Assembly (NCBI GenBank): GCA_021792795.1
Contig: JAJYUB010000001.1
Span: forward strand, 62,001-126,000
From: Acidobacteriota bacterium
GTDB lineage: Bacteria; Acidobacteriota; Terriglobia; Terriglobales; Acidobacteriaceae
Length of the DNA stretch: 64,000 nucleotides
Direction: 5' to 3'
The notes under the pieces are model-generated. The model made no database searches and was not told the DNA's origin. It saw only the letters and a list, made by a program, of their open reading frames with translations. The translations under genes were made by a program, and so were the position numbers. Positions within the stretch are counted from its first letter, which is position 1. The number at the start of each line of letters is the position of its first letter. This document shows, in pieces, positions 33,794-63,847 of this stretch.

Positions 33794-34390
33794 ATGAAGC
33801 CGCCTAAATTTTTTTACGTGGGCATCGCCGCTGTCCTCGCGTGCGTCTTTTCCGCCCAGGCTCGTGGAGTTGCGCCAACCGGCAGTACGGCGCCCCAGGG
33901 GGCCCAGCCCAGCGCTGTTCTTGCGCAGGGCCAAGCGCCGTTGATGAAGTTCAAAATACTGAACCAAAGCGCGCAGGAAACAACCTACGCCGTTATCTTC
34001 GGCGCTGGGGATGAGGTGTTCAGCGGTCTGACACAGTTCGCGGAAGATCATCATATTTCCGCCGCGAGAATTACGGGCATTGGCGCGATCGAGAGCGCAA
34101 CCCTGGGGTGGTTCGATCCGCAGCGGAAGACCTACCGGCGCATCTCCATCGATCATCAGTCGGAGGTGCTTTCATTGTTGGGGGACATCGCACTGTATCA
34201 GGGCAAGCCCGTCGTCCATGCCCACATGGTCGTTGGGTTTCCAGATGGGACCGCGCGCGGCGGCCACCTTTTGCAGGCCCATGTTCGACCAACCCTTGAA
34301 GTCATCGTTACGGCATATCCACGGCCCCTGTACAAGAAATTTGATGCAGAGAAGGGACTTGCGGTGATTGATCCGTCGATTCAAAAGTAG
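33794..34390 (+). CDS. Exported PPC (DUF296)-domain protein
   Basis: 198 residues from ATG 33794, preceded by GGAGAGG 7 nt away; an in-frame ATG at 33734 would put 20 polar residues before the signal peptide. A signal peptide (about 1-24, VLACVFSAQA) predicts export. The PPC/DUF296 domain (about 55-180) has FGAGDEVFSGLTQFAEDHHISAARITGIGAIESATLGWFD and HAHMVVGFPDGTARGGHLLQAHV, whose histidines may bind metal. PPC domains are usually cytoplasmic, or attached to plant AT-hook proteins; an exported version is unusual. Biochemical function is unknown. Confidence 0.85.
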   Translation: MKPPKFFYVGIAAVLACVFSAQARGVAPTGSTAPQGAQPSAVLAQGQAPLMKFKILNQSAQETTYAVIFGAGDEVFSGLTQFAEDHHISAARITGIGAIESATLGWFDPQRKTYRRISIDHQSEVLSLLGDIALYQGKPVVHAHMVVGFPDGTARGGHLLQAHVRPTLEVIVTAYPRPLYKKFDAEKGLAVIDPSIQK

Positions 34391-34399
34391 CCGGGGTGC

Positions 34400-34438
34400 G
34401 GGGTGCCCCATTCAAGCATTCTTTTGGCTTGAGTGGGG
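34400..34438 (-). repeat. CTCAAGC-type hairpin with GGGGCACCC tail, in the metH leader
   Basis: Read on the minus strand: CCCCACTCAAGCC, a short loop, then GCTTGAATGGGGCACCC. The same arms occur on the plus strand at 46945-46980. It lies just upstream of the metH ribosome site (AGGAGA at 34453), so the hairpin would be in the metH leader. Confidence 0.7.
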
Positions 34439-34461
34439 ACAAACCTATTTTGAGGAGAACG

Positions 34462-37400
34462 ATGCAGAACTTCTTAGAAATTTTACGAGATCGAGTGATC
34501 GTCTACGACGGCGCCATGGGCACCAGTATCCAGAAGCATGCCCTGACCATCGACGATTATTGGAACAAGGAAGGCTGCAATGAGCTGCTGGTGCTCAGCC
34601 GGCCCGATGTGATTCGCGGTATTCACGCGAGCTTCCTCGAAGTTGGCTGCGACGTCATCGAGACCGACAGTTTCGGTTCGTCGCGTCTCGTGCTGGCGGA
34701 GTACCAACTGGAAGACAAGACGCGCGAGCTGAACATGGTCGCCGCGCAGTTGGCGAAAGAAGTTGCCGCGCAATATTCCACGCCGCAAAAGCCTCGCTTT
34801 GTTGCGGGTTCCATTGGCCCCACCACCAAGCTCCCATCGCTCGGGCACATTACCTACGATGCCATGGCGGAGGCCTATCGCGAGCAGATTGAGGCGTTGA
34901 TTGAAGGCGGCGTGGACATTCTGTTGATCGAGACCTGTCAGGATTTGTTGCAGGGCAAGATCGCGCTGGCCGCGTGTGAGGACGCGATGCGCTCGACCGG
35001 CAAACGCCTGCCAGTCCAGATGCAGGTCACCTTGGAAGCCACGGGAAGAATGCTGCTGGGCAGCGAAATCGGCGCGGCGCTTGCCGTACTGGAATGCTTT
35101 CAGCCGGACATCGTCGGGCTGAACTGCGCCACCGGTCCGCGCGAGATGAACGACGCGGTGCGCTTTCTCTGCCAGAATGCGACCCGGCCTGTCAGTGTGC
35201 TGCCGAATGCCGGGCTGCCGCAGAATGTCGGCGGCCATGCCGTGTATGCGCTAACGCCGGCGGAGCTGGCGCATTTTCACAAACAGTTCGTGGAAGAGTA
35301 TGGCGTGCGTGTTGTGGGCGGCTGCTGCGGCACCACGCCGGAGCATCTGCGCGCCGTAGTCGAAGCGGTAGAACATTCCAAGCCGGCGCCAACCCATGCC
35401 GTGGCGCAGAGCGTGGCGGCCAGTGCTTACTCCTCGATCCCGCTGGAGATCGACGGACAACCTGTGATCGTCGCCGAGGAAATGAACACGACCACGCGCA
35501 GTCCCGTGTTTCGCGAGATGGTCCGAAGCGGCGATTATGGCGGCATCCTGGCGCTTTCAAAACGTCTGGCTGCGGAAGGCAGCCAGATGCTCGATATCTG
35601 CTGCGCCATTGTCGGTGAAGACGAGAAGGCATATATGAATGCGGTGCTCGATCAGATTGCCACGCGTGTGCCCGCGCCGGTGCTGGTCGATTCCACCGAA
35701 GCGGATGTGATTGAAGAAGCGCTGAAGCGTATTCCCGGCAAGCCGTTGATCAACTCCATCAACCTGGAAGATGGCGAAAAGCGAACGTCGAAGGTGCTGC
35801 CCATGGCACGCCGCTATGGCGCGGCTGTGATTGCGCTGACCATCGACGAAGACGGAATGGCGCTGACCGCGCAGAAGAAAGTCGCCGTGGCGCGGCGTAT
35901 TTTCGAGTTGGCGACGAAGAAGTATGGGCTGCGCCCGCAGGACCTGATCTTCGATCCGCTGACGTTGCCGATTTCAACCGGTCAGGAGGACTATCGCACC
36001 GCCGGCATTGAAACGCTGGAAGCCGTGCGCCTGCTGAAGCAGGAGTTGCCGGAATGCAAAACAATTCTCGGCGTCAGCAACATTTCCTTTGGATTGTCGA
36101 CCTATTCGCGCCGTGTTTTAAACAGCGTGTTCTTGAAAGAAGCGGTCGATCGCGGGCTCGATATGGCCATTGTGAATTACTCGAAGATTTATCCGCTCTA
36201 CAAAATCCCTGAAAAGGAAGTGGACCTGGCGCGCAAGCTGATCTTTCGCGAAAGGGCTCAAGACGAATCCGGGGATACTTCAGACGGCGATCCACTGCAG
36301 GTGTTTATGGCCTATTTTGCCAACCTGCAAAAAGACCCCAACGCGGAGCCGGAGCCGGAGGCCGTCGAAGCCCTCACCATTGAAGACAAGCTGAAGCAGT
36401 TGATTATTCGCGGAGAGCGCAGCGTCGGTGCGGGCGCGAGTAAGCAGTCGCTGGAGGACCTGCTGGAGACCGCGCTTGAGACCTACACGCCATTGCAACT
36501 CATCAATACGGTGTTGCTGGATGGGATGAAGACAGTTGGGGAACTGTTTGGCGCGCGCAAGATGCAGCTTCCGTCGGTGCTCGATTCGGCATCGGTGATG
36601 AAAGCTGCGGTCGCATACTTGGAACCGAAGATGGAGCGCGTCGAAGGCTCGCAGCGGGGGACCATTGTGCTGGCCACAGTGAAAGGGGATGTACACGACA
36701 TCGGCAAAAATCTCGTGGACATCATCCTGTCGAACAATGGCTATAAAGTGGTAAATCTCGGTATTAAGCAGCCGTCGGACGCGATCATCAAGGCGGCGCA
36801 CCAGCACAAGGCGGACGCAATCGGCTTGAGTGGACTGCTGGTAAAGAGCACGTTGGAGATGAAGTATGTGATCCAGGATTTACAACACCTGGAAAGCGAC
36901 ATCCCGGTTATTTGCGGCGGCGCCGCGTTGACGCGGAAATATGTCGAAGACGATCTGCGCAAGGAATACGCGGGCCCCGTGTACTACGCGGAGGATGCCT
37001 TCGCGGGGCTGCATGTCATTGGAGACCTGACAGCGGAAGATGCCGGCGTGCGCGCGGAGCGCATAGAAGACGGGCGAACGGTGCGGTTGTTCGAACGGAA
37101 AAATCTTTTGCCGGAGGAGCAGATCGGGCCGCAGCCGCCTGTATCGACCGAGCGGTCATCGGTGATTCAAGACGCGCCGGACATTCCGCTGCCGCCATTT
37201 TACGGAGTGCGCGTGAAGAATGATTTTTCTCTCGACACTGTGTTCGCATACATCAACGAGACGGCGTTGTTCAAGAATCAATGGCAACTGAAGACCGCTT
37301 CCGCAACGGACTATGTTCGCCTGGTCGATGAAAAGTATCGTCCGATTTTGCATGAGATGATTGCCGAGGCGAAGCAGACGGGATGGCTGGAGCCGAAGGT

Positions 37401-37989
37401 CGTCTACGGCTATTTCCCGTGCAACAGCGATGGCAATGACGTGGTCGTGTATGCGCCGGAAGCGGCGCCGCCAGGGAATACGAAACAGGAACTGTTACGT
37501 ATTTCTTTTCCGCGACAGCGCGAGGGCCGCAAGCTTTCCATCGCCGACTTCTTTCTGCCGAAAACCTCGGATCGCCTCGATGTCATTGGGTTTTCCGTCG
37601 TCACGGTGGGGCAGCGCGCCAGCGATTTGACCAAGGAATTGTTCGATCGCGGAGATTTTACGAAGTATCTATACACGCATGGACTCAGTGTAGAAACTGC
37701 CGAAGCGCTGGCCGAGTACATGCACAAACTGATGCGCGAAGAGCTTGGTATTGACGGCGAAGATTCAAAAGAAGTGCGGGACCTGTTCCATCAAAAATAT
37801 CGCGGCTCGCGATATTCGTTTGGCTATCCAGCGTGCCCGAATTTGGAAGACCAGGCCAAGATTTTTGCATTGCTGCATCCGGAGGAAAACATCGGGGTGC
37901 GGTTGACGGAGAGCTATCATCTGGAACCGGAGCAGAGCACGGATGCCATTATCGTGCATCATCCCCAGGCGAAATATTTCGTGATTTAG
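34462..37989 (+). CDS. metH: Cobalamin-dependent methionine synthase
   Basis: Methylates homocysteine from 5-methyltetrahydrofolate through methylcobalamin. 1175 residues from ATG 34462 with TGAGGAG directly upstream; the frame also opens 22 codons earlier inside a repeat. The homocysteine domain (1-315) has DGAMGTSIQ and zinc cysteines in GLNCATGP (about 222) and GGCCGTTP (about 287-288). The pterin domain is at about 350-610. The B12 cap and binding domain has KGDVHDIGKNLV (cobalt-ligand His near 743) and SGLLVKSTLEM. The AdoMet-activation domain is at about 920-1175 (YRGSRYSFGYPACPNLEDQ). All four modules are intact. No B12 riboswitch is visible upstream. Confidence 0.97.
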   Translation: MQNFLEILRDRVIVYDGAMGTSIQKHALTIDDYWNKEGCNELLVLSRPDVIRGIHASFLEVGCDVIETDSFGSSRLVLAEYQLEDKTRELNMVAAQLAKEVAAQYSTPQKPRFVAGSIGPTTKLPSLGHITYDAMAEAYREQIEALIEGGVDILLIETCQDLLQGKIALAACEDAMRSTGKRLPVQMQVTLEATGRMLLGSEIGAALAVLECFQPDIVGLNCATGPREMNDAVRFLCQNATRPVSVLPNAGLPQNVGGHAVYALTPAELAHFHKQFVEEYGVRVVGGCCGTTPEHLRAVVEAVEHSKPAPTHAVAQSVAASAYSSIPLEIDGQPVIVAEEMNTTTRSPVFREMVRSGDYGGILALSKRLAAEGSQMLDICCAIVGEDEKAYMNAVLDQIATRVPAPVLVDSTEADVIEEALKRIPGKPLINSINLEDGEKRTSKVLPMARRYGAAVIALTIDEDGMALTAQKKVAVARRIFELATKKYGLRPQDLIFDPLTLPISTGQEDYRTAGIETLEAVRLLKQELPECKTILGVSNISFGLSTYSRRVLNSVFLKEAVDRGLDMAIVNYSKIYPLYKIPEKEVDLARKLIFRERAQDESGDTSDGDPLQVFMAYFANLQKDPNAEPEPEAVEALTIEDKLKQLIIRGERSVGAGASKQSLEDLLETALETYTPLQLINTVLLDGMKTVGELFGARKMQLPSVLDSASVMKAAVAYLEPKMERVEGSQRGTIVLATVKGDVHDIGKNLVDIILSNNGYKVVNLGIKQPSDAIIKAAHQHKADAIGLSGLLVKSTLEMKYVIQDLQHLESDIPVICGGAALTRKYVEDDLRKEYAGPVYYAEDAFAGLHVIGDLTAEDAGVRAERIEDGRTVRLFERKNLLPEEQIGPQPPVSTERSSVIQDAPDIPLPPFYGVRVKNDFSLDTVFAYINETALFKNQWQLKTASATDYVRLVDEKYRPILHEMIAEAKQTGWLEPKVVYGYFPCNSDGNDVVVYAPEAAPPGNTKQELLRISFPRQREGRKLSIADFFLPKTSDRLDVIGFSVVTVGQRASDLTKELFDRGDFTKYLYTHGLSVETAEALAEYMHKLMREELGIDGEDSKEVRDLFHQKYRGSRYSFGYPACPNLEDQAKIFALLHPEENIGVRLTESYHLEPEQSTDAIIVHHPQAKYFVI

Positions 37990-38048
37990 GCCGACCGCCG
38001 CGGCGCCTACGAGGGCCCCAAAGTGGCCGCGCGCGGGCCCAGGAAAAA

Positions 38049-38110
38049 TTAGTTGCTAAGGCAACTAAAATGAGGGAAAACGATGCAATTGGTTGCCTTA
38101 GCAACCAATT
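38049..38110. promoter_or_regulatory. Two tandem MarR-like palindromes upstream of the glucosaminidase gene
   Basis: Palindrome 1 (38049-38068) is TTAGTTGC-TAAG-GCAACTAA, a perfect 8-bp dyad. Palindrome 2 (38087-38110) has 10-bp arms, AATTGGTTGC and GCAACCAATT, around CTTA. Both contain GTTGC-N4-GCAAC, the loops are complementary (TAAG/CTTA), and the centres are 40 bp apart, close to four helical turns. Operators of this type bind MarR-family dimers. A smaller CGTTGCAACG palindrome follows at 38144-38153. No MarR gene is in the window. Confidence 0.55.
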
Positions 38111-38219
38111 TATTGCCGGCGGTTTCCGTTGCCGTAAAGTGGTCGTTGCAACGGACATTGGCGCATCGATCGATCGTTCCCATGGATACTGGAAGTAGAG
38201 TCCCTTCCCAGGAGCGTCC

Positions 38220-38696
38220 GTGTCCATTCAAACGATTTTTCTGTCTCGCGCCTATCGGGCCGCCCAAGCCGCGCATCACATTTTTCCCGCGTACGCCGCT
38301 TGCGAGGCCGCGTTGGAGTCGGGATGGGGCCGATCCCAACTCGCCGTGGAGGCGAACAACCTGTTCGGCCAAAAGCAGAGCCAGCCTCCGCTGGCTGCGA
38401 CGGAGACCATTACCCTGCCGACGCGGGAATACCTGCACGATCACTGGATGACGGTCTCAGCCAACTGGGCGAAGTTTCCCGACTGGAACGAGTGTTTCAG
38501 GGCGCGCATGGCGCTACTGGAACGGCTGGCCCGCGCCTATCCGCATTATGGAGCGGCGCTGAAAGCGGCCACAGGCGAGCAATATGTGACTGCGGTGTCA
38601 CTGAGCTGGTCGACCGATCCGGAGCGGGCGGGCAAGGTCCTCGCGGTCTATGACGCACATGCGGCCGCCTTTACGGATCCGCAGCGGGCAGCGTAG
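38220..38696 (+). CDS. Glucosaminidase (GH73, FlgJ-like) domain protein
   Basis: Probable N-acetylglucosaminidase acting on peptidoglycan, 158 residues. It starts at GTG 38220, with GGAG 6 nt upstream. The GH73 core is visible as FPAYAACEAALESGWGRSQLAVEANNLFGQK, with the catalytic glutamate in ALESGWG near residue 33, followed by DWNECFRARMALLERLAR and YVTAVSLSWSTDP. There is no signal peptide, so export would need holin-like help or another route; phage endolysins share this layout. It lies between metH and a phosphohexomutase, behind two tandem palindromes that may control it. Confidence 0.85.
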   Translation: MSIQTIFLSRAYRAAQAAHHIFPAYAACEAALESGWGRSQLAVEANNLFGQKQSQPPLAATETITLPTREYLHDHWMTVSANWAKFPDWNECFRARMALLERLARAYPHYGAALKAATGEQYVTAVSLSWSTDPERAGKVLAVYDAHAAAFTDPQRAA

Positions 38697-38724
38697 GTTA
38701 CATATTCCTTGTTGTTGCTCCTGA

Positions 38725-38770
38725 CCGCCGAACTCCCAGGTCTCAAGGTCGAGAACTGGGAGTTCGGCGG
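38725..38770. repeat. Long hairpin containing a 26-nt repeat of the CCCA-TCTC type
   Basis: Outer perfect 15-bp arms, 38725-38739 and 38756-38770 (CCGCCGAACTCCCAG and its complement), enclose TCTC-AAGGTC-GAGA. The central 26 nt (38735-38760) follow the 10-6-10 design seen at 20211 and 46849. It lies between the glucosaminidase and phosphohexomutase genes. No T-run follows, so it is not a classical terminator. Confidence 0.75.
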
Positions 38771-38833
38771 CACATGGGCAAGATGCATCCAACATTCGGT
38801 ATTCTTGTTTCTAAGAAAGTAGAGAGGGAGAAG

Positions 38834-40237
38834 ATGCCGACACAGATTCATTTTGGGACCTCGGGCTGGCGCGCTGTTGTTGCCGACCAGTTCACGCTGC
38901 CGAACATCCGGCGTGCAATTGTGGGAATTGCCGGGTACGTGGCGAAGCAGCCGGGAGAGCATCGCATCCTGGTGGGCCGCGATCCGCGATTCATGGGGGA
39001 GATGTTCGTCGAAGAAGCTGCGCGGCTGCTGGCGGAGCGAGGCGTCGTTCCTGAGGTGATTGCAAGTCCGGCGCCCACACCGGCGATTGCGTATGCGGTG
39101 CGGCAGCGCAAGACCAGCGGGGCGATCAACTTTACGGCGTCGCACAATCCGCCGGAATATAACGGGATCAAATTCTCCACGCCCGACGGCGCGCCGGCGT
39201 TGCCGGAGGTGACGAAGCAGATTGAGGCGGAAATCGCTGCGCTGGGAGACGCTGAGGTCCGTCCCGGCGCCGCCGCCGACAAGAAGTTCGAAACCGTCGA
39301 CGTAAAGCCGGACTACCTGAAGCGGCTGGCGGAACTGATCGACATCCAGGCGATTGCGAAGGCGAAGCTGCGCATCGTGGTCGATCCATTCTGGGGAGCC
39401 GGGCGTGGGTATGCGCAGCAGCTCCTGACGGAGAACGGGGTTTCCGCGGTGAGCGTCCACGATTACCGCGACGTTCTGTTTGGCGGCCATGCGCCGGAGC
39501 CGGACGATCCCTTGCTGGGCGATTGCAAGGCCAAAATGCGCGAGACCGATGCGCACCTGGGGATTGCCACGGATGGCGATGCGGATCGTTTTGGGGTGGT
39601 CGATCGAGATGGCACGTTTATCCAGCCAAATTACATCATTGCGCTGCTGTTCGAGTATCTGGTGGAGACGCGCGGCTGGCGCAACGGGGTGGCGAAGAGC
39701 GTTGCCACGACCAACTGCGTAAATGCGCTGGCGGAGCACTACAAAATTCCGCTGTACGAAACGCCGGTTGGCTTCAAATACATTGGCGAGCTGATCGACC
39801 GGGACAAGATTGCCATCGGCGGGGAAGAGAGCGCCGGCCTGACGATTCGCGGGCATGTTCCGGAGAAAGACGGCATGCTGGCTGGATTGCTGGTGGCGGA
39901 GATGGTGGCCGTCCGCGGCAAGACGATCGGCGAGCAGTTGCAGGCCCTTTTTGGCAAAGTGGGTTCCTATTATCCGGTCCGAGAGAATTTCCACTTGACG
40001 CAACAGGCCAAAGACAACTTCACTAAGAAGTTGAAGACCGAGCCGCGCGAACTTGCCGGCCGCAAGGTTTCCGCCATAGTCCGAACGGATGGGCTGAAGC
40101 TGGTCTTCGACGACGGTTCGTGGGTCTGTTATCGTCTGTCTGGCACGGAACCCGTGGTGCGGGCCTATACAGAGGCCCGCTCCAAGGAAGATTCCGTGAA
40201 ATTGACGGAAGCCGCGAAGCAGTGGGTGCTGGAGTAG
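38834..40237 (+). CDS. Phosphoglucomutase/phosphomannomutase family protein
   Basis: Alpha-D-phosphohexomutase of 467 residues from ATG 38834, preceded by GGAG; an earlier in-frame ATG (38774) starts within a hairpin repeat. FGTSGWRAVVADQF opens the protein. The phosphoserine loop is TASHNPPEYNG (Ser near residue 101), the metal loop is DGDADRFG (near 247), the sugar-binding loop GGEESAGL (near 333), and the phosphate-binding loop RLSGTEPVVRAY is near the C-terminus. The likely reaction is glucose 1-phosphate/6-phosphate interconversion, which would feed the glucan and LPS pathways encoded nearby. Phosphoglucosamine mutase is less likely from the sequence. Confidence 0.92.
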   Translation: MPTQIHFGTSGWRAVVADQFTLPNIRRAIVGIAGYVAKQPGEHRILVGRDPRFMGEMFVEEAARLLAERGVVPEVIASPAPTPAIAYAVRQRKTSGAINFTASHNPPEYNGIKFSTPDGAPALPEVTKQIEAEIAALGDAEVRPGAAADKKFETVDVKPDYLKRLAELIDIQAIAKAKLRIVVDPFWGAGRGYAQQLLTENGVSAVSVHDYRDVLFGGHAPEPDDPLLGDCKAKMRETDAHLGIATDGDADRFGVVDRDGTFIQPNYIIALLFEYLVETRGWRNGVAKSVATTNCVNALAEHYKIPLYETPVGFKYIGELIDRDKIAIGGEESAGLTIRGHVPEKDGMLAGLLVAEMVAVRGKTIGEQLQALFGKVGSYYPVRENFHLTQQAKDNFTKKLKTEPRELAGRKVSAIVRTDGLKLVFDDGSWVCYRLSGTEPVVRAYTEARSKEDSVKLTEAAKQWVLE

Positions 40238-40278
40238 GTTACGATGGCGGATGAGGCGTGGACCGTGAGAATGCGCAG

Positions 40279-40710
40279 ATGAATCTTGGATCGCGGAACA
40301 AATTGCAACGGCAGTTGATCGCTCACGATGTTTCCGCGCCGGTGCCTGCATCCGTTCCGCAGGGAAGCCGAATTGCGCGGTTGTCGACGAGCGCGCTGGG
40401 GATGCGACGCAAGGCGGCCACTGTGTTGTTTGTGGCGCTGTCGGTGTTTCTAGGCTTCTACGCGATCTTTGGCCACGACGGCTTGGTTGCGTATCAGCAG
40501 AAGCAGCATCAGGCGCAAAGGCTCCAGCAGCAGATTCTCGACCTGCAAAAGCAGAACGACAGGTTGGCGCTGCACGACCAGCGCCTGAAGACCGACCGCG
40601 ACACGATTGAGTATGAGGCGCGCGAGCAGATGCACTATACCCGTCCGGGCGAAGTGATTTACACGCTGCCAGAGGCGCCAGCGACGGCCCCCGCATCGAA
40701 AGCTAAGTAG
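40279..40710 (+). CDS. FtsB/DivIC-type septum formation initiator
   Basis: Small bitopic division protein of 143 residues from ATG 40279 (GTG 40258 also possible). A cytoplasmic N-terminus with basic residues is followed by one membrane helix (about 46-62), then a periplasmic coiled coil (YQQKQHQAQRLQQQILDLQKQNDRLALHDQRLKTD) and the family end-motif DTIEYEAREQMHYTRPGEVIYTLPE. FtsB links FtsL and FtsQ in the divisome. The cytoplasmic segment is longer than in E. coli. It follows the phosphohexomutase gene closely. Confidence 0.9.
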   Translation: MNLGSRNKLQRQLIAHDVSAPVPASVPQGSRIARLSTSALGMRRKAATVLFVALSVFLGFYAIFGHDGLVAYQQKQHQAQRLQQQILDLQKQNDRLALHDQRLKTDRDTIEYEAREQMHYTRPGEVIYTLPEAPATAPASKAK

Positions 40711-40745
40711 TTGTTTAGCGAACGGACCGCTTCTGCCAGCACACT

Positions 40746-40812
40746 CTGGATTCTTCGCTACGCTCAGAATGACTCATCTCATTTTTGAGTACGGTATCTG
40801 TAAATCCGCTTT
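40746..40812 (-). repeat. Bipartite post-stop repeat, copy 2
   Basis: On the minus strand, directly after the porin TAA stop, AAGCGGATTTACAG is followed 24 nt later by GTCATTCTGAGCG and then AGCGAAGAATCCAG. The arms are the same as copies 1 and 3. The spacer contains CTCA-TTTT-TGAG, a small hairpin. Confidence 0.78.
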
Positions 40813-42365
40813 TAAAACTCGAGGTGGAGGCGGACGCTTTCGACGTTGACAGGGCCGCGGGCCTGGTTGTAGCCCGGATGCTCGATGAACTGGTTGTCCA
40901 AGGCGTAGTACACGCCGCGCCAGGCGTGGACGTTGTAATACGCCTCCAAAATATCTTCTCTCGCATAATTCAGGTTCCCATCCCCAAGTAAAAATCCCAG
41001 GCCGCCAAACCGCAGGTAATTCTGATGGTCTTTCTTGATGGCATTGGTGACAAAGGCGACGCCGACCTTATCCAATTTGCGATGCCAGCTTGAGCCTCCA
41101 TAGTCCGCGCCGAGCAGAAATGTCTGATCGTCTTCCGTGTAAGCGAAGGATTCATGCTGGCCTTCGTTCCAGCCGAAGCGTCCACCGACGCGAAGGTCCC
41201 GTGTGATGTTTTGCTCCACGTTGACGCCGAAGCCATATTTCAGCGCGCCAAACTTTTCGACCGAAGTGATCTCCGGTTTGGGCGTCAGGCCTTCAAAATA
41301 ATGAATGACAGCTTCGCGGTAGTCGCCCATGTGGGCGTTGTTGCCATAGGCGAGCAGACGGATGCGGCCTTCGCGACCGGGCAGGAATCCTTTGCGAATT
41401 TCCATCTCCATGTTTTGCCCATGGGCGCGCCGCAGGGCCCAGTCCAGCGTGATGCCGTTGGCGACGGTCGGCATCAGCCCCAGCACGTAGCGCAAGGCCC
41501 AGGCGCGGTCTTGATATTCGATGGCGGCGCCGTAGGTGTAGCCACGCGTGTCGGCGGCGTAATCCCACGCGCCGTTGTTGTCGACAGTCCAGTTCATGAA
41601 CTGCTGGTGGCTGTCGCTCAAAATGGCGTTCACATCCAGCATGTCCGGCAGGGTGAATTTTCCGGCTCGCAGATCGAGCCGTCGTACCGGGACCTGGGTT
41701 GCCAAGGCTAGCGGGCCACGCTCCTGCGGCACGGTTTCATTCGTAAATCCGATGGTCTGATGGAACTGGACGCGCGCGGTGTAGGGGACGATGCTCAGAT
41801 TGGGATTTCGCACCACATCCAGATTGGTGAAGCCTGCCAATCCAAGGGCCTGGCTGAGGCCGCGCCCGCCCGCATTCTCCTCGTCATAGATAAATTCCGT
41901 TTCATATCGTGGGGCCGGATTCAGTTGATACCCGAGATAGAGGGTGGCCAGTTCCGAGGCTTTGTATTCAAAGGGCGCGGTGAAGCTGTTGGGTCCTTGA
42001 TAGGGGGAGTGAAAGTTTCCGTGCATCTGATAAATGCTGTTAGCCTGGCCGTTGATCCAATAGCGAGTGGCGTCGGGGTGGGGAAAAAAGGTGAGCTGGT
42101 CTTCACCGGGCGGCTCGATTTTCTCCGCCAGCGACTGAGGCGCAGGGGCACGTTGCGGCCCGGGATTTGGCGAAGAAAAATCCAAGGCAATATAGAAGAT
42201 TGGGCGCGGGCCGCTGTTTCCTGCTCCAACGCAGGCAGCGGGGCAGGATTCGGCAGGTTGCGTTGTGGGCTGGGGGGCCTGGGGCAGGTCCTGGGCCAAG
42301 GCAGGCGATAGGCCCAGGGACACAGACAGCAGCATAAGCACAGCGAATTGGAGGCAGTATTTCAA
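40812..42365 (-). CDS. OprB-like carbohydrate porin
   Basis: Outer-membrane beta-barrel of 517 residues with a signal peptide (1-24, ending ALAQ). A Pro-rich linker, then a barrel of alternating aromatic strands: WINGQANSIYQMHGNFHSPYQG, LYLGYQLNPAPRYETEFIYDEENAGGRGL and the end block NLNYAREDILEAYYNVHAWRGVYYALDNQFIEHPGYN, which is typical of the carbohydrate-selective OprB family. The protein ends in Phe, as barrel proteins do. Nearby glucan and trehalose genes are consistent with sugar uptake, but the substrate is unknown. Confidence 0.88.
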   Translation of the reverse strand: MKYCLQFAVLMLLSVSLGLSPALAQDLPQAPQPTTQPAESCPAACVGAGNSGPRPIFYIALDFSSPNPGPQRAPAPQSLAEKIEPPGEDQLTFFPHPDATRYWINGQANSIYQMHGNFHSPYQGPNSFTAPFEYKASELATLYLGYQLNPAPRYETEFIYDEENAGGRGLSQALGLAGFTNLDVVRNPNLSIVPYTARVQFHQTIGFTNETVPQERGPLALATQVPVRRLDLRAGKFTLPDMLDVNAILSDSHQQFMNWTVDNNGAWDYAADTRGYTYGAAIEYQDRAWALRYVLGLMPTVANGITLDWALRRAHGQNMEMEIRKGFLPGREGRIRLLAYGNNAHMGDYREAVIHYFEGLTPKPEITSVEKFGALKYGFGVNVEQNITRDLRVGGRFGWNEGQHESFAYTEDDQTFLLGADYGGSSWHRKLDKVGVAFVTNAIKKDHQNYLRFGGLGFLLGDGNLNYAREDILEAYYNVHAWRGVYYALDNQFIEHPGYNQARGPVNVESVRLHLEF

Positions 42366-42652
42366 CGCAAAATATCCTGGAGCGCACGGGGTCGATTTTG
42401 ATGGTTATTTGGCGGAACTAGACGCATGGATATGGAATGGCCACGCGCCTGGGGTAGTTTGGGTTGCAACAGGACTGGCCCAAGCATGGAAACCGATGGA
42501 AAAGCCAGCTCAAAAAGCGCCTCGATTAGTATATCCCCTTATGGTATGCGGCGCGTTGGCTGCAAGGAATATTTTGCCTGGGAAATGTGAATTCTTGAAC
42601 AATTCGGCGCGGTCAAGCAGGATGCGATGGCGGCGGGGATGGCCAGCAACGC
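42366..42652. other. Intergenic region with no recognised feature
   Basis: 287 nt between the porin start and the end of the APC permease gene, both on the minus strand. It must hold the porin promoter, but I can place no convincing -35/-10 pair; TATACT-like sequence occurs near 42530 on the minus strand without a partner. No coding frame with a ribosome site and no repeat family member were seen. Confidence 0.4.
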
Positions 42653-61975: not shown

Positions 61976-63847
61976 GTGTCGACTGCTTCCGCGCTGGCCA
62001 TCGGCCTGAGAACGAACCTGACCGGGATCGACTGGCTGATTATGCTGGTCTATTTCGCGTTTGTGCTGGGCATTGGCTTTTTGCTGAAACGGCACATGCG
62101 CACCAGCACCGATTTTTTCCTGGCAGGGCGGGCGCTGCCTGCCTGGGTGTGCGGACTGGCCTTTATTTCCGCCAACCTGGGAGCGCAGGAAGTGATCGGC
62201 ATGGGCGCCTCGGGCGCAAAGTATGGCATTGCGACCAGCCAGTTTTACTGGATCGGCGCGATTCCGGCGATGGTGTTTGTCGGCCTGTTTATGATGCCGT
62301 TCTATTATGGGTCGAAGGCGCGTTCGGTGCCGGAATATCTGAAGCTGCGCTACGACGAGAAAACGCGGGCGTGGAATGCCGGCTCGTTCGCCATTATGAC
62401 TGTGTTTTCCTCCGGCATTTCCATGTACGCCATGGCCAAGCTGATCCAGGTGCTGCATATTTTCGACGGGCTGTTTCTTCACTTTGGGCTGCCGCTGGGC
62501 TGGATCTTTCACTTCTCCATATTTCTCTCCGCGGTGATTGTGCTGGGCTACATCTCGCTGGGCGGGCTGACCAGCGCCATCTACAACGAGGTGCTGCAAT
62601 TCTTTTTGATCGTCGCCGGATTTATGCCGCTGGTCTGGATCGGGCTGAAGAACGTGGGGGGATGGCACGGCATTCAACGCGCGCTGGGACCGGCCTATAC
62701 CCACTCCTGGCGCGGCATGGCGCACGCCAGCACCAACCCGCTGGGCACGCAATGGTATGCGCTGGTGTTTGGCCTGGGGTTCGTGCTTTCCTTTGGATAT
62801 TGGTGTACGGATTTTCTTGTGATCCAAAGCGCGATGGCCGCCGAGTCGCACCTGGCCGCGCGGCGCGTGCCGTTGATCGCTGCCATCCCAAAAATGTTTT
62901 TTCCGTTTCTGGTGATCCTGCCGGGGCTGATTGCGATCTCCGTTCCGACGGTGTCGCAGCGGATGATGGGGCAGGCGAAAACCGCGCCGACATCGGCTGC
63001 CGCGCGGGGATCTGTGGCCTCCGGAGCCTCTTCGGCGCTGGTTGGCAGGGGACTGGTCCCGGTCAAGATCGATCCGGTGAATGGCCGCGTGCTGACCGAC
63101 AACAAAGGCAAGCCGCTGCTCGACTACGACCTGGCGACGCCCAACATGCTGCTGCATTTTTTCCCCACGGGAATGCTGGGGCTGGGGTTGACGGCGCTGC
63201 TTGCCAGCTTTATGTCCGGCATGGCGGGCAACGTGACCGCGTTCAATACGGTGTGGACCTACGACATCTATCAGTCCTACATCCATAAGCATGGGAGCGA
63301 TGCGCATTATCTGTGGATGGGTCGCATGGCGATGATCGGCGGGGTGGCGCTTTCGATTGGCGCGGCGTATTTTGTCACGTCGTTCAACAACATCATGGAC
63401 GCGCTGCAACTGGTCTTCTCCTTTGTGAATGCGCCCCTGCTGGCGACGTTTCTGCTGGGCATGTTCTGGAAGCGCACCACCGGCCACGGCGCATTCTTGG
63501 GATTGCTGTCGGGCACCTGCGCGGCGGCGTTGCATACGGGTCTAACTTTGCCAGCGGATGTTTCCGGTGTCGGCATTCACGGTGGATGGATCGCCGTGCT
63601 GCACGTCTATCCCAGCACCATGGCGCAGACGTTTTGGACCGCGATCTGGGCCTTCTGCGTTTGCTTGGCGATGACGGTGGGGTTGAGCCTGATGACAAAG
63701 CCGCGCGATGAGAAAGAACTGGTTGGGCTGGTATATTCGTTGACGCCCAAGCCTGCTGAAGGGCATCTGCTGTGGTATCAGCGGCCGGCATCGTTGGCCA
63801 TTCTGGTGCTGGCGATGGTGGTGGTGTTGAACCTGGTGTTCTTGTAG
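61976..63847 (+). CDS. Sodium:solute symporter family protein (SGLT-like)
   Basis: Secondary transporter of 623 residues with 13-14 helices, starting at GTG 61976 after a GAGGG site. The N-terminal block is DWLIMLVYFAFVLGIGFLLKRHMRTSTDFFLAGRALPAWVCGLAFISANLGAQEVIGMGASGAKYG, as in SGLT/SSS proteins, and the sodium-site helix is LASFMSGMAGNVTAFNTVWTYDIYQ. A soluble insert of about 50 residues (about 335-390, with VKIDPVNGRVLTDNKGKPLLDYDL) lies in a loop. The substrate is probably a sugar or polyol; myo-inositol is attractive given ino1 nearby, but this is speculation. Confidence 0.92.
   Translation: MSTASALAIGLRTNLTGIDWLIMLVYFAFVLGIGFLLKRHMRTSTDFFLAGRALPAWVCGLAFISANLGAQEVIGMGASGAKYGIATSQFYWIGAIPAMVFVGLFMMPFYYGSKARSVPEYLKLRYDEKTRAWNAGSFAIMTVFSSGISMYAMAKLIQVLHIFDGLFLHFGLPLGWIFHFSIFLSAVIVLGYISLGGLTSAIYNEVLQFFLIVAGFMPLVWIGLKNVGGWHGIQRALGPAYTHSWRGMAHASTNPLGTQWYALVFGLGFVLSFGYWCTDFLVIQSAMAAESHLAARRVPLIAAIPKMFFPFLVILPGLIAISVPTVSQRMMGQAKTAPTSAAARGSVASGASSALVGRGLVPVKIDPVNGRVLTDNKGKPLLDYDLATPNMLLHFFPTGMLGLGLTALLASFMSGMAGNVTAFNTVWTYDIYQSYIHKHGSDAHYLWMGRMAMIGGVALSIGAAYFVTSFNNIMDALQLVFSFVNAPLLATFLLGMFWKRTTGHGAFLGLLSGTCAAALHTGLTLPADVSGVGIHGGWIAVLHVYPSTMAQTFWTAIWAFCVCLAMTVGLSLMTKPRDEKELVGLVYSLTPKPAEGHLLWYQRPASLAILVLAMVVVLNLVFL

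Follow-up and report, generated by a model that had tools for sequence, protein, structure and literature searches.

The 64,000-nucleotide stretch analysed here (the window) spans positions 62001–126000 of contig C73 in the source genome (G000; 4.04 Mb in 133 contigs). Between a gene for cobalamin-dependent methionine synthase (metH) and a gene for a GH73-type glucosaminidase lie two perfect dyads, TTAGTTGC-TAAG-GCAACTAA and AATTGGTTGC-CTTA-GCAACCAATT, exactly where a preliminary description of this DNA had placed them (Table 1). That description took them for tandem MarR-like operators upstream of the GH73 gene. Their cores are 40 bp apart, as it had said, although this distance amounts to about 3.8 helical turns and not the ‘about four’ that it gave. 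The downstream gene was named correctly, as its product matches PF01832 (Glucosaminidase) at 74.4 bits (cut-off 30.2). The palindromes are real and far from chance: the window contains two GTTGC-N4-GCAAC sites where 0.14 are expected, and none of 100 shuffles contained two. The element begins 62 bp past the end of metH, and a separately conserved block sits between it and the GH73 gene. Within this block, 3' of the element, is a small inverted repeat, TCCGTTGC..GCAACGGA (38125–38155). Four Rfam matches at 37900–38400, two of them over the element, were rejected, as all are sub-threshold and fall far below the gathering score.

Table 1. Features of the metH–GH73 region, in window coordinates.
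Feature	Position	Strand	Details
metH, cobalamin-dependent methionine synthase (upstream gene)	34396..37989	+	Named by eye from sequence; start codon uncertain (a simple gene-calling script puts it at 34462)
Left outer arm	37997..38048	.	Helix-phased AT/GC over ~50 bp (family average)
Palindromic operator 1 (putative)	38049..38068	.	Core GTTGCTAAGGCAAC at 38052-38065; dyad read from sequence
Inner spacer between cores, 26 bp	38066..38091	.	AT-rich centre with GC-rich blocks either side (averaged profile of the 40-bp class, not of the window copy alone)
Palindromic operator 2 (putative)	38087..38110	.	Core GTTGCCTTAGCAAC at 38092-38105; dyad read from sequence
Right outer arm	38111..38162	.	Helix-phased AT/GC over ~50 bp (family average)
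GH73-type glucosaminidase (downstream gene)	38220..38696	+	PF01832 Glucosaminidase

The preliminary description had proposed a search of the genome for other GTTGC-N4-GCAAC sites, and such sites exist. The core occurs 36 times in the source genome, against 8 times for a reversed control, and although 14 of these cores are single, the other 22 form 11 pairs, each on its own contig, the core starts being separated by 40 bp in nine pairs and by 29 bp in two. A core search allowing two mismatches in the same genome was uninformative (321 forward matches vs 403 for the control). Across 61 genomes, the pair pattern matched in only six, the source genome included (G000, G004, G006, G007, G008, and G009), all of one genus. 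No pairs were found in the genus mates G001, G002, G003, and G005, two of which are incomplete (G001, 73%; G005, 88%). Together, the six carriers hold a family of 70 pairs of twin GTTGCYWWRGCAAC sites, 9–15 pairs per genome, at 22 orthologous places; these places were defined by grouping the pairs by flanking genes, with two merged orthologue groups split by hand. Both cores are perfect in 63 pairs, and seven pairs have one or two mismatches in one core.

The distance between core starts is 29 bp in nine pairs, 30 bp in 33, 31 bp in one, 39 bp in one, and 40 bp in 26. Thus, 69 of the 70 pairs fall at 29–31 or 40 bp, in two classes that differ by about one helical turn. The inner-side bases next to the two cores tend to differ, one being G:C and the other A:T (complementarity 0.30 vs 0.51 in shuffles), an observation that is unexplained. 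Outside the 70 pairs stand six single-core loci (L022, L075, L094, L100, L111, and L120), three of which (L075, L094, and L111) have the core inside a gene. Four further loci were left out, either for having no GTTGCYWWRGCAAC core (L076 and L077) or for having single, chance-like cores (L028 and L029). The left neighbour of the single-core site of L022 (L022:5452-6042; G000:C59) encodes a lysine/alanine-rich protein that resembles a histone H1 tail and has no Pfam match.

A search of the GTDB genome set with the exact pair pattern, which is not exhaustive since a pair without a CTTA loop in either core would escape it, returned 47 stretches, 45 of them from five acidobacterial MAGs (DX1, FK2, WH2, JA1, and BP9). 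The remaining two come from a Deltaproteobacteria MAG (L136, spacing 30) and from Brevibacillus migulae (L146, spacing 38). A viral origin was rejected, as a search of IMG/VR with the exact twin pattern did not find it.

The order metH, element, GH73 is present in all six carriers, with spacings of 40 (G000), 30 (G004), 40 (G006), 29 (G007), 30 (G008), and 30 bp (G009). In this spacer, the cores have been retained while most other sequence has diverged, and the block nearer the GH73 gene is conserved in non-carriers too. Absence upstream of orthologues, which the preliminary description had named as counting against its reading, is seen in none of the six carriers but is seen in G003 and G005. 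Both have the spacer with neither the element nor the MarR gene described below, and neither offers a readable clean insertion (empty) site. The search for the flanking genes did not place metH next to the GH73 gene in G002 and did not find the GH73 gene itself in G001. By eye, the place of the element in the G003 spacer (L238) is taken by a long inverted repeat that is unrelated to it and has CATTCTGAGCGAAGCGAAGAATC arms, and the G011 spacer has a terminator-like hairpin.

The preliminary description saw no regulator gene nearby, and none was recognised by eye among the open reading frames of 34000–42500, but a candidate lies elsewhere in the genome. It is a 158-aa protein (G000:C94:23587-24060) that matches PF12802 (MarR_2) at 51.7 bits (cut-off 27) and PF01047 at 46.8 bits (cut-off 24.6). 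One of the orthologous places has the order lpxC (LpxC named by PF03331), element, marR, and here the element precedes the marR start by 19–30 bp in every carrier. A marR gene with the same motif in its own promoter, which had been suggested as a check, is thus found in six of six carrier genomes. Orthologues of the protein (70–79% identity to that of the source genome) occur in 6/6 carriers and 0/4 non-carriers, a co-occurrence that may go back to one evolutionary event, either gain or loss. In the GH73 tree, the monophyly of the carriers stays open, with two label changes, and one change in 28% of bootstrap trees. A distant MarR-like gene (G009:C303, L204) has a palindrome, ATAGTTGCTTTTAGCAACTAT, in which the spacing of the GTTGC arms is one base wider; it lies upstream, at about 150 bp from the matched stretch.

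Homologues of the candidate regulator (E below 1e-15) were detected in 27 of 399 genomes of the class, two of the 27 belonging to the genus. Upstream of each of the 26 marR homologues from beyond the genus stands a related palindrome, with an operator score of 9 or 10 out of 10 points; 0 of 4740 control windows scored as high, on a scale drawn up once the sites were already known. Many of these operators are GTTTCCATGGAAAC types, and 14 of the 26 genes carry another site at a distance of 21 bp. The closest outside homologue, in G150 (another genus; 52% identity), has the symmetric GTTGCCTTAGCAAC. The presumed recognition helix, MTK[AG]P[VI]SRL, is found in 7/7 proteins with symmetric GTTGC operators and in 0/25 others, and all of these 25 have no P at that helix position and K instead of R. 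Because the G150 protein is the closest outside homologue by identity, the match between helix and operator is partly a matter of shared descent.

The distribution of sites within these relatives was examined in two ways. When 14 GTTTCC-type relatives were searched with the 21-bp twin pattern (up to two mismatches), the marR promoter was matched in 13 of the 14 genomes, with both marR genes matched in G348. Away from marR, only two places were matched, both with two mismatches and both in G260, and a reversed control gave one match each in G452 and G260. Thus, the twin operator is local, at marR, in these relatives and dispersed in the six-genome clade. A strict single-site pattern, applied to 25 relatives, recovered the marR site in only eight, plus one other position (G376:C1:2271894), and is a weak test of dispersal compared with the twin search.

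Since the copies in the regulator's own promoter, the co-occurrence of gene and element, and the match between helix and operator point the same way, the twin palindromes are putative MarR binding sites. With the quantised spacing, these observations lend good support to the earlier suggestion of MarR-type twin operators in helical phase. The elements are very probably MarR-type operators read by the protein encoded at G000:C94:23587-24060. In the Deltaproteobacteria and Brevibacillus stretches, marR genes (L136:4094-4661 and L146:5979-7320) also adjoin twin GTTGC-N4-GCAAC sites, while their proteins are only 22–23% identical to the MarR of the source genome; judged from these sequences, the operator type may have been used repeatedly.

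Averaged over copies, the DNA within and around the palindromes swings between AT and GC in step with the helix. Counted outward from the element centre, the 40-bp class has AT peaks at 0, 10, and 20 bp, separated by GC; the 29/30 class has GC at the centre itself (0), with AT some 4.5 and 15 bp away. Measured from each palindrome, both classes fall on one AT/GC lattice, and such a common, palindrome-locked lattice would account for spacings of 30 and 40 being suitable and 35 not. Outside the palindromes, an AT/GC wave with a period of 10.5–11.5 bp extends for about 50 bp per side. Its power is 0.21, compared with at most 0.047 in 2000 row-shift nulls, and 0.216 in a comparison with 299 control gaps, from which 1000 sets gave no more than 0.019; at 61–110 bp from the palindromes, the signal is weak (p 0.012, period 13). 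Each of the 22 orthologue groups is positively correlated with the average of the remaining ones (0.03 to 0.77; 0.51 for the group of the metH–GH73 copy), and the wave can still be seen at coding positions (r 0.125, against -0.013 with sd 0.029 for the null). The same wave was not seen around the operators of the 26 outside relatives (p 0.30). By analogy, the phasing of the arms may be read as in DNA wrapped on a protein.

MarR operators are normally promoter elements, and the copy before marR is such an element. The other copies could, in principle, form an ordinary MarR regulon that has grown within the clade, each twin site repressing or activating its neighbour, here the GH73 gene. The genomic context makes this unlikely. 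Among the 66 pairs with both neighbours called (by our own simple gene-calling script, with four contig-edge pairs outside these counts), 33 are in tandem, 23 in convergent, and 10 in divergent gaps. Convergent gaps contain 35% of pairs but 22% of intergenic bases (gaps of at least 60 bp, same loci), and in tandem gaps, 23 of the 33 pairs are closer to the end of the upstream gene and 10 to the start of the downstream gene; none of these counts carries a p-value, because orthologous copies are not independent. No pair of the 70 lies inside a called gene, and that of L093 overlaps a gene end by 8 bp.

The ten divergent pairs and the ten tandem pairs near a downstream start mean that promoter roles are possible for some copies. 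As a set, however, the dispersed copies are not found in the promoters of regulated genes, given the convergent pairs and the tandem pairs nearer an upstream end. Scattering in 3' regions like a repeat, which the preliminary description had weighed against its own reading, is in part what is seen, as many copies lie behind or between convergent genes, but others are at promoter-like places. Also against a regulon, a search of 37900–38400 for a sigma-70-like promoter found none, and the 20 neighbour genes scanned with Pfam (among them SOD, bacilliredoxin-type, PPDK, DtxR-type regulator, glycerol kinase-type, and Usp genes) have no common pathway by eye. Phased arms of about 50 bp are not required by operator control alone. 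The regulation of GH73 by the element, as first envisaged, is not supported, as this copy begins 62 bp behind metH, the conserved block intervenes, and many members of the family are outside promoters. For the window copy, the MarR reading is right in kind, but it is no plain GH73 operator.

Less probable again is that the palindromes act as hairpins in RNA or single-stranded DNA, whether as intrinsic terminators or as a switch between two hairpins and one long stem. The window strand does fold as one long stem (-37.9 kcal/mol, z -4.57), but so would any two inverted copies of one palindrome. Both window palindromes score as terminator-like stems with T runs; these stems, however, are on the minus strand and so face the opposite way to metH and GH73. 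Intrinsic terminators were rejected across the family, as the T tract runs along transcription in 10 of the 33 tandem pairs and opposes it in 13, with ties in 10, and is strongest in divergent gaps. Complementarity within a palindrome tops that of shuffles at several positions beyond the core (positions 1, 3, 4, 6, and 7 of P1; 1, 6, 7, and 10 of P2), a result that either dyad recognition or hairpins could give. Between the two palindromes, the inner arms are more complementary than shuffles at position 7, as pairing hairpins would have it, but less so at positions 1 and 3, and the outer arms show no covariation (lowest p 0.08 of 12 positions). The hairpins noted by eye in the metH–GH73 spacers of G003 and G011 could also be counted in favour, while the helical-turn spacing is not needed by RNA hairpins. 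The switch that the preliminary description had derived from complementary loops does not survive these comparisons: among the 47 pairs in which both loops are plain CTTA/TAAG, 12 have them in the same orientation. The complementarity of the loops in the window comes from two near-symmetric sites facing opposite ways by chance.

A dispersed repeat of the REP/REPIN/MITE type, spread by a transposase, would be expected to comprise paired, intergenic palindromes, as these are, but this origin is very unlikely. A Y1 (REP-associated type) transposase gene (L078:620-1084; PF01797) does lie 160 bp from one element (1245-1298; G006:C2), and an IS110-like gene (by eye) is near another (L021). Close homologues of the former, however, occur only in G006 and in element-free G003, where the gene is 80% identical; a REP/REPIN system with a cognate RAYT gene was rejected on this lack of co-occurrence. 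Furthermore, copy number is low, positions are common to species, flanking sequences are unlike, and spacing is quantised. The lack of a readable empty site in G003 and G005 counts neither for nor against such a repeat. Finally, the dispersed operators might be decoys that titrate MarR and set its induction threshold without local effect, for which binding alone suffices and which would explain the non-promoter positions and the missing common pathway, but conserved positions and phased arms would go unexplained, and this is the least probable of the alternatives.

Sequence comparison establishes the family, its quantised spacing, its orthologous positions, its phased arms, the copy at the marR promoter, the co-occurrence with marR, and the match between operator and helix. 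Taken as a whole, these features are somewhat more probably than otherwise explained by a clade-specific chromosomal element of paired MarR operators with an architectural or insulating role. Two MarR dimers on operators 29–31 or 40 bp apart would sit on nearly the same face of the helix. The MarR protein (G000:C94:23587-24060) would bind every copy as paired dimers, and the bound pair might bend or wrap its flanks into a nucleoprotein complex within roughly 150 bp of helix-swinging AT/GC DNA. At the marR promoter, the bound complex would autorepress. Elsewhere, rather than a promoter switch, it may form an architectural site, serving as an insulator, a roadblock, or a topological anchor and possibly as a place where gyrase docks. 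Whether the elements are mainly architectural, as opposed to controlling local genes, is evenly balanced. A more specific scenario is offered tentatively, with the chances rather against it: a MarR autorepressor may have become a sequence-specific chromosome-architecture protein in one clade, its helically phased dimer pairs nucleating wrapped complexes of about 150 bp, possibly with gyrase, that serve as topological insulators at about 20 conserved places between genes.

If this proves true, a bacterial transcription factor has been caught while turning into a genome organiser. How a local regulator turns into a nucleoid-organising protein is an open evolutionary question, and both states would be represented within one bacterial class, by relatives with a twin operator at marR and by a clade with 22 places, new spacing, and phased arms. 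The set of elements also supplies a putative binding-motif family for uncultured Acidobacteria, and the proposal is testable with one small protein and DNA pieces of 65–150 bp. A title-level search of the open-access literature found no like motif and no MarR protein as a chromosome organiser.

The element nevertheless has partial counterparts among known systems. Like REP and BIME sequences, some of which have been suggested to bind gyrase, it consists of paired intergenic palindromes. It departs from them, as they are outlined in the accounts consulted, in having 9–15 pairs per genome, species-shared positions, no co-occurring transposase, and no constant flank. A second likeness is to the gyrase motif of E. 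coli, which spans about 130 bp, with a 36-bp centre and two arms of 10.75-bp GC periodicity, and whose sites are enriched downstream of transcription and in BIME-2 (PMC6379681). The acidobacterial element also has two arms of 10–11-bp GC periodicity, but unlike the gyrase sites as outlined in that report, it has two strict operators at its centre, a wave locked to them, and two centre lengths. Between the two spacing classes, the arms are shifted by about 5 bp relative to the element centre, a poor fit to one rigid, gyrase-like centre. Because the wave keeps its register with the palindromes and the two classes have centres of unequal length, the element is not called a gyrase site here.

A third likeness is to the autoregulatory operators of MarR-family proteins, such as SCO3205 of Streptomyces coelicolor, where the sites are pseudopalindromic too and two lie close to the gene of the regulator (PMC3737563). 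In the part of that system which the report sets out, these two act on that gene and on the neighbour divergent from it, whereas the acidobacterial sites form phased pairs at 22 conserved places, often behind genes, and are flanked by long phased arms.
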